From an uncultured Opitutia bacterium (GTDB lineage: Bacteria > Verrucomicrobiota > Verrucomicrobiia > Opitutales > Opitutaceae): 32,881 bases of DNA. Every line of letters begins with the position of its first letter. Within the stretch, counting starts at the first letter, position 1. Made by a program: the position numbers and the translations under genes. Under the pieces are notes generated by a model. That model was given only the letters and a program-made list of their open reading frames with translations, searched no databases and was not told the origin of the DNA. The stretch is taken from positions 1 to 32,881 of the forward strand of contig CAJAKX010000380.1 of the NCBI GenBank assembly GCA_903940425.1, given 5' to 3'. Shown here piece after piece: positions 17,801-32,881 of the stretch.

Positions 17801-18895
17801 GTGACCCTTCGCCTGGCCTATCGCCCCTACCGTCTTCCACTCCTCCGCACCGTGCGCACCGCCCATGGCCCGTGGATGGAGCGGGAGGGAATTGTGCTGC
17901 GGCTGGAGGACGAGCAGGGACGTGTCGGCTTCGGTGAGGTGGCGCCGATTCCCTGGTTCGGCACGGAGACGCTGGCGGAGGCCGGGAACGTGCTGGCGAA
18001 GCTGGGGGACACGGTGGAGACGGCGTCCCTCGAGGGCATCGACGAGCGTCATGGCTGTCTGCGGTTCGCCCTCGCCTCGGCTATGACCGAGGTGGGGCGG
18101 ATTATCCCTGATCCGCCGGATCCGGCACAGGCGCGGCGCGTCAAGGATAACGCGCCCAACCTTTCGTCCGCTGCGGTCCGGCGCCTGCCGGTGGCGGCGC
18201 TGCTGCCGGCGGGCAAGGCGGCGCTGGCGGCGGCGGACAAGGCGCTGGCAGAAGGGTTTGTCGCGTTCAAATGGAAGGTCGGCGTGCTTGACGCCGCCGA
18301 CGAATGGGTGCTGCTGGACGATCTGTTGGCGCGGCTGCCGGGTCACGTGAAGCTGCGACTCGATGCCAATGGCGCGTGGACGACGCGGCAGGCGGCGAAG
18401 TGGCTCGAGCGCTGTGCGGAGCGGCCGATCGAGTTTGTGGAGCAGCCCTGCTTCGCTGACGCTTCGCAGGGCGCGGCCGGGAAGCGCCGGACGGACGACG
18501 TCCTGCTTGGGCTGGCCCGTGACTACCCGACCACACTGGCGCTTGATGAATCGGTGACCGGACTTCCGAGTCTGCGGACATGGCTGGGGCGCGGCTGGCC
18601 GGGTGCCTTGGTGCTGAAGCCGGCGCTGGCCGGTGCGCCTGCGAGCGTGCTGGGATTGCTCGTGAAGCATCAAGCCGATGTGGTTTTTTCCTCGGCGTTC
18701 GAGACGGCCGTGGGCCGGCAGGCGGCGCTGCGGTTGGCATTTCAATTCAAGGGCCGTCACCCGCGCGCACTCGGTTTTGGAGTCACGCCGCTGTTCAAGG
18801 ATGGACGGTTTGACGGTCTGCCCGCCGTTCCCTTCGTGTCGGTTGAAGATGTCAACAGGATGAATCCCGAGACCGTATGGAACGCACTGAATTAG
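17801..18895 (+). CDS. menC: o-Succinylbenzoate synthase (MenC)
   Basis: The enolase-superfamily enzyme dehydrates SHCHC to o-succinylbenzoate in menaquinone synthesis. From the GTG start at 17801 (364 residues), the catalytic lysine pair is KWK at 157-159 and the metal ligands are D188 (LRLDANGAW), E214 (FVEQP) and D249 (LALDES); the second-side lysine is K273 (LVLKPALAG). An upstream open frame reaches 17648, with ATG codons at about 17687 and 17696, but that stretch overlaps the start of the opposite-strand guaB and lacks family similarity, so the GTG just before TLRLAYRPYRLPL is preferred. The 3' end overlaps menE by 19 bp, suggesting coupled translation. The menE neighbour supports the OSB-synthase role over dipeptide epimerase or N-acylamino-acid racemase. 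Confidence 0.9.
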   Translation: MTLRLAYRPYRLPLLRTVRTAHGPWMEREGIVLRLEDEQGRVGFGEVAPIPWFGTETLAEAGNVLAKLGDTVETASLEGIDERHGCLRFALASAMTEVGRIIPDPPDPAQARRVKDNAPNLSSAAVRRLPVAALLPAGKAALAAADKALAEGFVAFKWKVGVLDAADEWVLLDDLLARLPGHVKLRLDANGAWTTRQAAKWLERCAERPIEFVEQPCFADASQGAAGKRRTDDVLLGLARDYPTTLALDESVTGLPSLRTWLGRGWPGALVLKPALAGAPASVLGLLVKHQADVVFSSAFETAVGRQAALRLAFQFKGRHPRALGFGVTPLFKDGRFDGLPAVPFVSVEDVNRMNPETVWNALN

Positions 18896-20124
18896 TCCGC
18901 CGGCTCGGAATCACACTCCGGGTGGCTGCCCCGCGTGATGTCATCGTGGAGGAGCGTGAGCCCGAACGGTTCATGGCCGCTTTCGGCGAGGCCATGGCGG
19001 CCGGGGCCACGGTGTTCGTGGCAGATCCATCGTGGGGCGCGGCGGAACGGGCCCGGTTTGACGAACTGACCAACCCTAAACTCAAAACCCAAAACACAGA
19101 ACCGAGGCAGAGCCTCGGCTGGCTCTGTCTGCCAACCGGTGGATCGAGCGGGAGGCTGAGGCTGGCCCGGCACGATCAAGACACACTGTCCGCCGCAGTG
19201 GGTGGCTGCTGCGGACATTTCCATGTCAGGCAGATCAACGCGGTCGGCGTGCTGCCGTTGCATCACGTGAGCGGCCTGATGGCGTGGATGCGCTGTGCGC
19301 TCACCGGCGGCCGATACCTGCCGTGGGCCTGGACGGAGATGGAAAGCGGGCGCTGGCCGGAGACTGGGAAGGGCGACTGGTTCCTGTCCCTCGTGCCGAC
19401 CCAGCTTCAGCGGCTGCTGGACCAGCCGGCGGCGGCGGACCGTCTGCGGCGGTTTCGGGCGGTTTTTCTTGGCGGCGGGCCGGCCTGGTCGGATCTGCTC
19501 GACCGCGCGGCAGAGGCGCGGCTTCCCCTGGCGCCGGGTTACGGGATGACGGAAACGGCGGCCATGGTCACGGCCTTGCGCCCGGAGGAATTTCTGGCCG
19601 GCCACCGCGGTTGCGGTTCCGCCCTGCCGCATGCGAGGGTGGAACTGGGTGTGGATGGCGTCATCCAGATTACGGCGGAGTCCCTGTCTCGCGGTTATTA
19701 TCCGCACGGGCGCAAGGCCGGCCCGTGGCTGACGGAGGATCTCGGCTTTCTTGACGAATCCGGCAGCCTGCACGTGCTTGGGCGGCGGGATGCCGTCATC
19801 ATCACCGGCGGGAAAAAGGTCGAACCCGGCGAGGTCGAGGCGGCGTTGCGCACCACCGGACAGTTTGCCGACGTGGCGGTGATCGGCGTGCCGGATGCGG
19901 AATGGGGGGAGGCGGTCGTGGCATGCTATCCGGCCGGTCCGAAGGAGCCGGATGTCGCCGCAGTCCGCGAGTGCATCACGGGCCGGCTGGCGCCGCACAA
20001 GCGGCCCAAGCGCTACGTCCGCGTCGCCGTCTGGCCGCGCAACGACCAGGGAAAAGTGAACCGGCGGGAATTGACGGCCCTGGCCTTGGAGGCGGGCGGC
20101 AGGATCAGGCGGAATGATGCCTGA
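18877..20124 (+). CDS. menE: o-Succinylbenzoate-CoA ligase (MenE)
   Basis: The 415-residue adenylate-forming enzyme would activate o-succinylbenzoate to its CoA ester. The AMP-binding P-loop is LPTGGSSGRLRLARH (85-99), a Gly-rich variant of the usual TSGTTGKPKG. GYGMTETAAM is the A5 motif, LTEDLGFLDESG the A7/A8 aspartate, and the C-terminal domain has GGKKVEPGEVE and NDQGKVNR with the catalytic Lys. It is shorter than many acyl-CoA ligases because the N-terminal domain is reduced, as is common for MenE. Residues 66-79 (NPKLKTQNTEPRQS) are encoded by an atypical AT-rich repeat plus a small palindrome and look inserted. It overlaps menC at its start and overlaps the opposite-strand thioesterase gene by 20 bp at its end. 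Confidence 0.9.
   Translation: MERTELVRRLGITLRVAAPRDVIVEEREPERFMAAFGEAMAAGATVFVADPSWGAAERARFDELTNPKLKTQNTEPRQSLGWLCLPTGGSSGRLRLARHDQDTLSAAVGGCCGHFHVRQINAVGVLPLHHVSGLMAWMRCALTGGRYLPWAWTEMESGRWPETGKGDWFLSLVPTQLQRLLDQPAAADRLRRFRAVFLGGGPAWSDLLDRAAEARLPLAPGYGMTETAAMVTALRPEEFLAGHRGCGSALPHARVELGVDGVIQITAESLSRGYYPHGRKAGPWLTEDLGFLDESGSLHVLGRRDAVIITGGKKVEPGEVEAALRTTGQFADVAVIGVPDAEWGEAVVACYPAGPKEPDVAAVRECITGRLAPHKRPKRYVRVAVWPRNDQGKVNRRELTALALEAGGRIRRNDA
19071..19118 (+). repeat. In-frame AT-rich repeat plus palindrome inside menE
   Basis: 19071-19101 is an A/C-rich stretch with the core CAAAACCCAAAAC, clearly unlike the surrounding GC-rich coding sequence. It is followed by a perfect palindrome, CCGAGGC-AGA-GCCTCGG, at 19102-19118. 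The same 13-base core occurs on the opposite strand within 31572-31609. The insertion keeps the menE frame and falls between the reduced N-terminal part and the P-loop strand. Confidence 0.6.
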
Positions 20125-29996: not shown

Positions 29997-30545
29997 CTAG
30001 ACCGGGCGGTTGAGAATAAGTTCACACACTTCGCGCACGGCGCCGCGACCGGCGGAACGCGAGGTGATATAGCCGGCCGCCGCGAGGGCGGCGGGCATGG
30101 CGCCGGGCACGGTGACGCCGACGCCGGCCCAGGCGAGCGCCGGCGCGTCGATGTCGTCGTCGCCCATGTAGCATACCGTCTCGGCTCCGAGGCCGAGCCG
30201 ACCGGCCAGTTCCTGGAGCACCGCGAGCTTGTCGGTGCAGCCTTGGATGAGGTGGGTGATCTTCAGTTCGGTGGCGCGGACGATGGAGACCGGGGAGGTC
30301 CGGCCGGAAATCCAGGCGAGAATGATGCCGGCGTCGCGGCAGCGCACGAGGCCCAGGCCGTCGAGGATGGAGAAGGTTTTCGACTCGGTGCCGTCGGTGT
30401 GGATCGTCACCGTGCCGTCGGTGAGGATGCCGTCGACGTCCATCGCGAAGAGCCGGATGCGCGTCCAGGAGGAACGGGGGATGCCGGATCGCGGAGGCCG
30501 GCGACCGGAAAGTGATTTACGCGGGCGGGGGCGTTTCGATTTCAC
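29997..30545 (-). CDS. kdsC: 3-Deoxy-D-manno-octulosonate 8-phosphate phosphatase KdsC
   Basis: The HAD-superfamily phosphatase, about 182 residues, releases Kdo from Kdo 8-phosphate for LPS core synthesis. Motifs are MDVDGILTDG (nucleophile and acid aspartates), ISGRTS (motif II), the conserved lysine in GCTDKLAVL and CYMGDDDIDAPAL (motif III, metal aspartates). The start is uncertain: the frame opens with a TTG at 30584 inside a short repeat, a GTG lies at 30545, and the first ATG (30443) is already inside the catalytic motif. GTG 30545 gives a basic N-terminal extension of about 30 residues compared with usual KdsC. lptC follows 9 bp after the stop. Confidence 0.9.
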   Translation of the reverse strand: MKSKRPRPRKSLSGRRPPRSGIPRSSWTRIRLFAMDVDGILTDGTVTIHTDGTESKTFSILDGLGLVRCRDAGIILAWISGRTSPVSIVRATELKITHLIQGCTDKLAVLQELAGRLGLGAETVCYMGDDDIDAPALAWAGVGVTVPGAMPAALAAAGYITSRSAGRGAVREVCELILNRPV

Positions 30546-30570
30546 GTGGGGCCAAGCAAACAGTGGTCTT

Positions 30571-30593
30571 TCCGAAATCGCCAATCCGAAATC
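30571..30593. repeat. Tandem TCCGAAATC repeat at the E1/kdsC junction
   Basis: TCCGAAATC occurs at 30571-30579 and 30585-30593, 14 bp apart, with GCCAA between them. The block lies between the E1 stop codon (30604-30606) and the likely kdsC start, and the TTG candidate start of kdsC falls inside it. The composition is AT-richer than the flanking genes, like the other junction repeats in this window. Confidence 0.55.
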
Positions 30594-30603
30594 CGCCCTC
30601 GGT

Positions 30604-32670
30604 TCATCCCAGCCAGCTGGCGACGGCGGCGAGCACCTTCTCCCTGGTCGGGCGGAAGGCCGTTTCCAGTTCGGGGGCGAAGGGCACGGGCAGGTCGAGC
30701 GCGCCGAGGCGCAGCGGCGGCGCCTCGAGCGAGAAGAACAGCTCCTCGGTGAGGCGGGCGACCAGCTCGGCGCCGAAGCCGTGCGTGCGCCGGCCCTCGT
30801 GCAGCACGATCAGCCGGTGGGTGCGCGCGAGCGACTCCTTGATGGCGTCCAGCCGGAGCGGGGAGAGGCCGCGCAGGTCCCAGAGCTCGAAGTTGCGCTC
30901 ATACTCGGCGGCGAAGTAGTCGCAGATCTCGCCCGTCAGATGCACCATCTCGCCATAGGTGACGAGGGTCGCAAAATCGCCGGTCCGGACGCACTTGGGA
31001 TTCCAGACGTCGCGGAAGTGCGGATCCCACGTGATGGGATGCTTGCCGCGGCGGTAGAGCCCCTTGTGTTCGAACAGCAGGACGGGATTGCCATCCTCGA
31101 AGGCGGCGAGCAGCGCGTTGAAGGCGTCCTGCGGGTTGCTGGGGTAGAGCGCCTTGAGGCCGGGCATGGAGAGGTAGAACGACTCGAGTTCCTCCGAGTG
31201 GAACGAGCCGAAGGTGAGCCCGCCGCCGCACGGCAGGCGCAGCACGAGCGGCACGGCGGCGCCCGACCGGAAATGATACGTCGCGGCGTTGAGCACGATC
31301 TGCGTCGTGGCCTCGGTGGAGAAGTCGGCGAACTGGAATTCCTCGATGGGGTGGTGGCCGTTGACCGCGAGGCCGATGGCGTAGCCCGTGCTGACGCTCT
31401 CGGCGAGGGGCATGTTCATCACGCGCGGCCGGCCGAAGTCCTTGAGTAATCCCTCGGTGACCTTGAACGCGCCGCCATAGGTGGCGATGTCCTGGCCGAG
31501 GACGAGGGATTCGGGGCGCTCGGTGAGGATTTTGCGCAGCGCGCGGTTGAGCGCCTGCGCCATGGTCACGATTTCGGTTTTGGGTTTTGCGTTTTTGGTT
31601 GGGGGTTCCGAGTCGATGGAGGGCACCCAGGGAACCGGCGGTGCGGGCGGCGCGAACAGGTCGTGCTCCATCCCGGTCGGGTCGGGGCGCGGCTGGGCCA
31701 TCGCCACCTTGAGGCATTCCTCGACAAACGCGGCGATTTCCGCGTCGAGCGCGTCGAGGTTCGCGCCGTGGCCGCCGGCGGCGAGACGGGCGCGCAGTTT
31801 CGGGAGCGGATCGGCCGCAAACATGGCCTCGGCCTCGCCCGGCTTCAGGTAGTCGCAGGTGTCGTAGGCGGCGTGGCCGCGCAGGCGCAGCGTGTTCGCC
31901 TCGATCAGCAGCGGGCGGCCGGTCCGGTGGACCTTGTCAATGGCGGCGGCGAACGTCTGGAGCGTGGCGGCGACATCCGCGGTGCAGTCGAGGGCGAGGC
32001 CCTCGATGCCGTAGCCGGCGGCGCGGCGCCAGAGTTCGAGCCCGGCGGCGTATTGCTCGCTGACCGGCGTCGAGTAGGCGTAGTGGTTGTTCTCGATGAC
32101 GAAGAGAATCGGCAGGTTGAGCAGCGTGGCGAGGTTGAGCGATTCGTGCACGTCGCCCGTGCTGCTGGAGCCGTCGCCGATGAAGGCAAAGCCCATGGCC
32201 GGCCGGCCGAAACGCCGCTGCGAGTCGAGGGCGCCGACCACGTTCGACACCATGATGCCGAGGTGGCTGATCATCGGCAGCGAGCGGTGCTTCGGGTCGC
32301 CGTGGTGGACGTTGCCCTCGCGCGCCTTGGTCGGGCTGGCGGCGTTGGCGAAGTACTGGTTGAGATGGTCGACGAGGTGGCCGCTCCAGATAAGATGCCC
32401 GCCGAGGCCGCGGTGCGTGAGGGAGATGACGTCGACATCCTTGTCGGCCAGCAGCGCGAGCGGGACAATAAGCCCCTCGTTGCCCTGGCCGCCGGTGACG
32501 GTGCCGCGGATGAGGCCCTGCCGGAAAAGGTCGAGAATGCGGTTGTCGGCCGTGCGGGCGGTCAGCATCCACGCGTAGGTGCGGAGCAGGGCGCCGGGGA
32601 GGTCGGCGGCGAGATCCGCGGGCCGCAGGTCGCGGCCCGCCAGGATCGCGGGAGGTTTTGGGTAAACCAT
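30604..32670 (-). CDS. Fused alpha-beta 2-oxoacid dehydrogenase E1 component
   Basis: The 688-residue ThDP enzyme would decarboxylate a 2-oxoacid (branched-chain 2-oxoacid or pyruvate) and pass the acyl group to a lipoyl-E2. Residues about 1-350 are the alpha half: ThDP-Mg motif GDGSSSTGD (165-173) to ENN (193-195), plus SLTHRGLGGHL. Residues 370-688 are the beta half, beginning MAQALNRALRKIL, with FGRPRVMNMPLAES, PIEEFQFADF, the catalytic-domain end YPSNPQDAF and EGRRTHGFGAE. The two halves, separate genes in most bacteria, are joined by a linker (about 354-369, EPPTKNAKPKTE) encoded by an AT-rich repeat. ATG 32670 is preferred over the TTG at 32691. Nothing here fixes the substrate; no E2 or E3 gene is in view. 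Confidence 0.9.
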   Translation of the reverse strand: MVYPKPPAILAGRDLRPADLAADLPGALLRTYAWMLTARTADNRILDLFRQGLIRGTVTGGQGNEGLIVPLALLADKDVDVISLTHRGLGGHLIWSGHLVDHLNQYFANAASPTKAREGNVHHGDPKHRSLPMISHLGIMVSNVVGALDSQRRFGRPAMGFAFIGDGSSSTGDVHESLNLATLLNLPILFVIENNHYAYSTPVSEQYAAGLELWRRAAGYGIEGLALDCTADVAATLQTFAAAIDKVHRTGRPLLIEANTLRLRGHAAYDTCDYLKPGEAEAMFAADPLPKLRARLAAGGHGANLDALDAEIAAFVEECLKVAMAQPRPDPTGMEHDLFAPPAPPVPWVPSIDSEPPTKNAKPKTEIVTMAQALNRALRKILTERPESLVLGQDIATYGGAFKVTEGLLKDFGRPRVMNMPLAESVSTGYAIGLAVNGHHPIEEFQFADFSTEATTQIVLNAATYHFRSGAAVPLVLRLPCGGGLTFGSFHSEELESFYLSMPGLKALYPSNPQDAFNALLAAFEDGNPVLLFEHKGLYRRGKHPITWDPHFRDVWNPKCVRTGDFATLVTYGEMVHLTGEICDYFAAEYERNFELWDLRGLSPLRLDAIKESLARTHRLIVLHEGRRTHGFGAELVARLTEELFFSLEAPPLRLGALDLPVPFAPELETAFRPTREKVLAAVASWLG
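31572..31609 (-). repeat. AT-rich CAAAACCCAAAAC repeat encoding the E1 linker
   Basis: On the minus strand this block is A/C-rich with two similar units (CAAAAACG, then CAAAACCCAAAAC). It lies exactly between the alpha and beta halves of the E1 fusion, ending about nine bases before the Met codon (31563) that would start a separate beta subunit. The 13-base core is identical to that inside menE at 19071-19101. Confidence 0.6.
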
Positions 32671-32881
32671 GCTGGGCCCCGACGGTGGCAACCGGCGGTG
32701 CCGCGTGCAAGCCCGTTAGAAGTCCGGCTGACCTCGGGGTCGCAAAGTCCCCGGGGAGGGAAAATCCGCCTGAAACTCACCTTCCCGCCGGTCCGTTCAC
32801 CTCAGGTGTTGATCCGGCTCTTTCCTCATGACTTGGCGTCGAGCCTCTTGGTGCCGACCATGCTCCAAGCCCTGGCAATCC
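32671..32881. other. Window end; possible 3' tip of a leftward gene
   Basis: No complete gene is visible. On the minus strand one frame is open from the window edge to a TGA at 32826-32828 and reads IARAWSMVGTKRLDAKS, which would be a reasonable protein C-terminus but is too short to identify. The rest (32671-32825) is intergenic and presumably carries the promoter of the E1 gene; I see no clear hexamers or RNA. Confidence 0.25.

Follow-up and report, generated by a model that had tools for sequence, protein, structure and literature searches.

Dispersed heptanucleotide arrays read in frame as the linker of a fused E1 alpha-beta protein in Opitutaceae

The window analyzed here is a stretch of 32,881 nt from an uncultured bacterium of the Opitutaceae, and on its minus strand lies a single gene that combines the alpha and beta subunits of an E1 enzyme. 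The features of this gene are as follows.

30604..32691, minus strand: fused E1 alpha-beta gene, 695 aa, stop codon counted in
31564..31650, minus strand: linker between the alpha and beta domains, residues 348-376
31561..31563, minus strand: Met codon opening the beta half, residue 377, read from 31563
31570..31596, minus strand: degenerate heptanucleotide array of AAAACCC type, in frame

A profile search placed E1_dh at residues 42-338 in the alpha part and Transket_pyr (375-547) and Transketolase_C (568-686) in the beta part, all above cut-off, which is the composition of an alpha/beta-type 2-oxoacid dehydrogenase E1; no NCBIfam profile that would name a pyruvate or branched-chain substrate reached cut-off against this ORF. 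The two-chain E1 of PDH and BCKDH (e.g. 1um9, 1w85, 1dtw) has the same domains, but the solved relatives listed consist of separate alpha and beta chains whereas the E1 of the window is one chain. The 28 solved relatives among the matches listed at E 1e-20 each align to one half, either to alpha inside residues 24-348 or to beta starting at 369-375, and none covers both; the residues left uncovered, about 348 to 369-375, were therefore taken as the linker. An AF2 model (26 rows, mean pLDDT 73, moderate quality), informative solely on the linker being coil, shows residues 346-372 as coil without secondary structure.

A reading made from the sequence alone had described an AT-rich block at the subunit boundary with the core CAAAACCCAAAAC and a beta Met codon at 31563, and both positions are confirmed, the core lying at 31577-31589 on the minus strand. 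Residue 377 is not conserved as Met among relatives. The low GC content is real, with a GC3 of 0.42 in the linker (12 codons) versus 0.91 in the whole E1 gene, but the block is more exactly a period-7 tandem array: the coding-strand sequence of the stretch, AAAACGCAAAACCCAAAACCGAAA, is a degenerate tandem array of CAAAACC type, translated as the linker peptide SEPPTKNAKPKTEIVTM, and because 7 is not a multiple of three the period is a property of the DNA. Matches to the core with at most two mismatches number 6 in the window, compared with 0.30 expected and a maximum of 3 in 100 shuffles, and all 6 are confined to two spots, the E1 linker and one other in-frame stretch.

19076..19102, plus strand: second array of the window's linker family, in frame in a MenE-like gene (18877-20124)

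Eight exact copies of the core 13-mer occur in the 3.68-Mb genome (G000), 6 of them inside ORFs according to a simple ORF caller, these ORFs being E1 and matches to RuvB, ABC_transp_aux, penicillin amidase, DUF255 and the MenE-like protein. The proposal that a repeat is read in frame as the linker stands, in that a dispersed repeat which is also intergenic forms linker coding sequence. Arrays at the N-terminal ends of RuvB-, MocA- and HisH-like ORFs of this genome may precede the true starts and were not counted as proof; in the RuvB-like case the array lies in an N-terminal extension behind a predicted start. The core has no inverted partner nearby in the window, and the linker array is a direct tandem repeat rather than one palindrome. 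In a general repeat search of the whole window the linker was absent from the 20 largest families, which are weak coding look-alikes, and a reversed-pattern control for CAAAACC words was discarded as these words are identical when read backwards. The linker array of the window is a weak example: at the stricter lag-7 score of 13 no array was listed in the window, the E1 linker included, so the case depends on relatives.

A protein search of 150 genomes of the family at E 0.001 gave matches in 148. By hand count of the listing, 125 of the 150 have the match at a single location that covers residues 19-694 or more, the remaining genomes having pieces, splits or distant relatives only. Of 223 relatives found, 80 were kept as named loci, and most of the named records are metagenome assemblies. 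The first set consisted of 89 distinct genes aligned without interruption across the linker. At lag 7, 23 of these linkers reached a score of 9, as opposed to 1 of 1656 control segments from the same genes; at lag 9 the same threshold was reached by 6 linkers and 31 control segments, and at every other lag by 0-1 linkers. A larger set, for which both halves were required and identical domain sequences were removed, comprised 115 ingroup and 13 outgroup rows. A 7-nt array stood at the linker site in 26 ingroup rows and 89 fell below the threshold used, L039 and L047 with a score of 8 being counted as array-free. Raising the score to 13 left 14 of the 115 rows at lag 7, with 0-1 rows for any of the remaining lags between 4 and 12. 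An alternative explanation could be an ordinary low-complexity linker whose period emerged incidentally, as the hydrophilic character of the peptide was selected, or by chance; this would suit the presence of arrays in just 26 of 115 rows and the loose constraint on linkers in general. This would not account for a period that is no codon multiple, for the excess over control segments, or for the lag test, in which a score of at least 10 gave 22 rows at lag 7 and 0 at lag 9, and we regard it as highly improbable. The same low likelihood attaches to an artefact of repeat assembly in metagenome bins: many records are indeed metagenome assemblies, but when the 115 rows are grouped into 89 clusters at 90% identity, array rows occur in 21 of the clusters (4 of these mixed), with varied units and mostly in frame.

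The preference for 7 nt extends beyond the linker. In 623 kb of family DNA there were 45 period-7 arrays and 15 of period 14, and the remaining periods between 4 and 15 had 0-5 arrays each. Of the 45, 44 have at least one strand free of stops (87% expected from shuffling) and 26 have both strands free (38% expected); by a simple caller, and in loci chosen around E1, 21 arrays were intergenic, 7 at a gene edge and 17 inside ORFs. The linker arrays are built of tandem 7-nt units and the same family can occur at many places in a genome, as in dispersed heptanucleotide (STRR-like) repeats.

More than ten unit families were found at the same linker site. They include, not exhaustively, AAAACCC, AAATCCG, ATATCCG, AAAATCC, AAAATCG and ACTCCGC, and further AGCTCTC, AGCGCTC, AGCTCCC, ACTGCTG, AGAGGCT and AACATCC. 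Linker peptides track the DNA unit, e.g. NPKSEIR, TPHSALR and SALSSQL, and a linker peptide retained with unrelated codons, the pattern of ordinary conserved coding sequence, was not seen in relatives. In a small clade of genus g2, with end branches of ~0.03 and equal linker length, L032 carries AAAATCC while L041 and L051 carry ACTCCGC. Within one 90% cluster, L075 is without arrays and L127 has arrays and a linker ~105 nt longer. The linker of L141 (G103) is very long and rich in Ala, Pro and Ser.

The family at the linker tends to be one that is common elsewhere in the same genome. Exact double units of five families, picked for occurring in linkers, were counted in 24 genomes. ACTCCGC gave 39 in G050, 15 in G079, 7 in G001, 6 in G121 and 0-3 in the other 20; AGCTCTC gave 12 in G320 (L062), 10 in G321 (L068), 7 in G001, 6 in G322 (L096), 3 in G109, 2 in G071 and 0 in the 18 remaining. 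AAAATCC was most numerous in G001 (22), G102 (19), G050 (14), G024 (12) and G087 (10), with 0-6 elsewhere. AAAACCC, the linker family of the window, is sparse in its own genome, with 2 matches in G000, 2 each in G125 and G060, 3 in G024 and 0 in the other 20, and AAATCCG, at 0-2 per genome, is weakly informative. With ties shared and E1 matches excluded, the linker family ranked first among the five in 12.3 of the 14 genomes whose linker belongs to one of them; shuffled labels gave a mean of 3.2 and reached 12.3 in 0 of 20000 shuffles, these shuffles not being independent trials since the families were picked from linkers and the genomes share ancestry, and several of the genome matches resting on 1-3 counts. 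In genus g2 the linker family outnumbered the alternative (ACTCCGC vs AAAATCC) in 4 of 5 genomes. Agreement was not clear in G121 (5 vs 6 matches) or in G060, where three families tie at 1; the linker of G087 is short and plain despite the many AAAATCC units of that genome, and G001 has its AGCTCTC matches but an AAAATCC linker.

Arrays also occur at other coding sites and at gene ends. At the MenE site within the genus of the window, G060 is nearly identical to the window and four other members differ. By a lenient measure 5 of these 6 score 11-16 at lag 7 vs 2-6 at other lags, L188 being weak at lag 7, and by the strict measure 4 of 6 reach 9. Two further features lie beyond the E1 stop.

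30570..30597, minus strand: very degenerate heptamer-like stretch just past the E1 stop, lag-7 score 6
29997..30584, minus strand: KdsC-like gene downstream of E1, in whose relatives the N-terminal frame hosts heptamer arrays

Among 77 loci of sufficient length, 62 showed the DVDG motif of KdsC. An array was present in the 110 nt preceding the motif in 19 of the 62, all 19 inside the open kdsC frame, and in L065, L067 and L086 the scored array apparently precedes the probable kdsC start. Around E1 itself, arrays occurred within 200 nt after the stop in 15 of 78 loci and before the start in 1 of 74. The arrays after the stop are often paired in inverted orientation. The longest inverted arm there had a median of 15 nt in the 15 array loci; in the 63 without such an array the median was 7, with arms of 13-21 in some of them. 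In 12 loci the arms match better within a locus (median 15.5) than between loci (11), and the within-locus median is attained by 21% of cross-locus arm pairs. Either of two processes would account for the inverted downstream pairs: arrays being copied in inverted orientation, or an RNA hairpin close to the kdsC start being selected. Such pairs near the kdsC start were observed in L065, L066, L067, L071, L079, L082, L083, L091, L099, L105, L108, L112 and L125, and their arm units vary between species while remaining complementary within a locus. In the genome of the window, an inverted AAAACCC-type pair lies directly before the probable ATG of a HisH gene (L018:1485-1565). Two arrays are very long and nearly pure, where the usual ones have few units: AAGACGG inside a 556-aa ORF (L105:669-821) and AATGACC at a gene edge (L106:2854-2936).

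The order of fusion and arrays can be approached from a tree of the domains without the linker, built quickly and with a long-branch warning at the outgroup. On it array presence changes at least 16 times, 11 of them forced by well-supported branches, counts that cannot separate gain from loss. Early-branching fused rows (L145-L154, L156) have short plain linkers without an array, and several array families at the site are restricted to few close relatives. In the outgroup, ~36% identical, alpha and beta are separate with an in-frame stop between them in 13 of 13 rows examined, these rows being best single-frame matches and no census. Given the separate outgroup subunits and the array-free early fused rows, the fusion either originated in the lineage leading to this family or was acquired, and the arrays most likely followed it.

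The sequence-only reading had proposed the reverse, that the fusion was created when a repeat in the spacer between two separate subunit genes lost its stop, in which case plain linkers would reflect later loss of the repeat. The separate out-of-family relatives do indicate that a fusion occurred, and arrays are frequent beside gene ends, as after the E1 stop. However, both the early fused rows and the 89 ingroup rows below threshold are without an array, and the site hosts arrays from numerous families, several of these limited to few close relatives, so that we consider this history quite improbable. Moreover, the only array-linked change in gene structure that was found runs the opposite way. 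In G060, from the genus of the window and with halves 95-97% identical to it, the array is out of frame: alpha closes with TGA, and two bases (CC) separate this stop from the ATG that opens beta. Provided that the draft assembly is correct, this would be a split caused by a change in the array.

It could also be supposed that the array is a phase-variable switch of the neuO type, in which gain and loss of units moves E1 between fused and split forms. The G060 junction, and the fact that 7-nt steps shift the frame, are in line with such a switch. On the other side, arrays are short and degenerate, the frame is kept in 24 of 26 array linkers, and the linker of G060, in a draft assembly, is 8 nt longer than that of the window, which makes a single 7-nt unit alone insufficient; this pair, G000/G060, is the one pair of close strains compared for linker length. 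In the other out-of-frame case of the 26, L137, the break is in a C run preceding the array. A switch is thus unlikely, if somewhat less so than creation of the fusion by the repeat.

Several other candidates for broken linkers were not retained. The genome G053 was rejected as a split gene on account of the position of its break; its linker (L137) has an AACATCC array with an inverted copy farther along and a long C run upstream that breaks the frame. In G070 the break is located within alpha, the linkers of G027 and G096 are long but in frame, and the single listed stops of G119 and G099 sit at the very start of the match, outside the linker. No stop was found in the match of G037, and so none in its linker.

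Given the period of 7, the multiple families at one site, the agreement with genome pools and the array-free early fused branches, the explanation we favor, with good though not full confidence, is that the alpha-beta fusion predates the arrays and that the linker is a tolerant site occupied, in frame, by heptanucleotide repeats of the families dispersed in that genome. Such repeats would arise and change at the DNA level, a 7-nt unit being unobtainable from a codon-level process, and three units give a peptide period of 7 residues. Because the units are stop-free in the coding direction, an array of frame-fitting length may be tolerated and may work as a spacer, the constraints on the linker probably being mainly frame and absence of stops, which would let arrays persist. 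Over time the arrays at the site would be replaced by a family common in that genome, probably via slippage plus copying between arrays; an earlier proposal, told in PMC4679880, linked the 7-nt preference to the polymerase. We infer that arrays move or are converted between places, and the linker peptide may act as a spacer only. No insertion with target-site marks was seen in the analysis. A broader and more doubtful possibility is that a self-spreading heptanucleotide class docks at tolerant sites (the E1 linker, the KdsC N-terminus, the MenE loop) and that the dominant family of a genome overwrites its arrays, in which case intergenic and coding arrays would evolve in concert and the same DNA process would make both gene-boundary hairpins and protein spacers.

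Repeats of comparable kinds are known. Cyanobacterial STRR sequences are likewise many dispersed 7-nt arrays, often beside gene ends. The palindromic elements of Rickettsia, a repeat family of noncoding type, likewise lie in frame within genes unrelated to one another, but are palindromes of ~100-150 nt as opposed to the short tandem heptamers described here. Heptanucleotides have been reported as over-represented among the repeats of many bacteria (PMC4692102, PMC2700814, PMC4679880). In neuO of E. coli K1 an AAGACTC heptanucleotide array lies in the 5' coding region (PMC13001214), and there too a 7-nt tandem array is translated in frame with unit number setting the frame; neuO, however, is carried as cargo by a phage, has 3-53 units and varies in phase by direct measurement (PMC13001214), whereas the present arrays are short and degenerate, come from many families, lie in housekeeping genes and are mostly in frame. 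The dispersed heptamers of Xanthomonas and Nostoc, GGGAATC and GGGGA(C/T)T, are similar in forming many dispersed arrays often beside gene ends, but are G-rich and reported to be under-represented in coding regions (PMC4692102), in contrast to several non-G-rich families here that sit inside genes and vary between species. In Geobacter metallireducens, four-unit GGGACCG elements occur in 49 places within and between genes (PMC2700814); they are one family, proposed as a regulatory RNA element, and the account given of them there does not mention cross-species turnover. For the TAACTGA heptanucleotides of Beggiatoaceae, which are also dispersed, it has been noted that proteins might tolerate them at their ends or, in modular proteins, where subunits join; unlike the arrays here they are mostly intergenic and in forward orientation place stops in all three frames (PMC4679880). 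Among the open-access literature matches listed, there was no description of such arrays in genes of Opitutaceae or Verrucomicrobia.

The best reading is that repeats of a kind already known take on a new role here, that of writing protein, with rapid family turnover, which suggests a DNA-level process supplying spacer peptides to working proteins. Sister species fill one site with different repeat families that tend to follow the repeat pool of the genome, and one enzyme offers fused and apparently split forms within one genus. This would provide a route, accessible to measurement, from a repeat process acting on DNA to peptide segments within conserved enzymes, and the function and spread of heptanucleotide repeats, an old question, becomes testable by comparative genomics.
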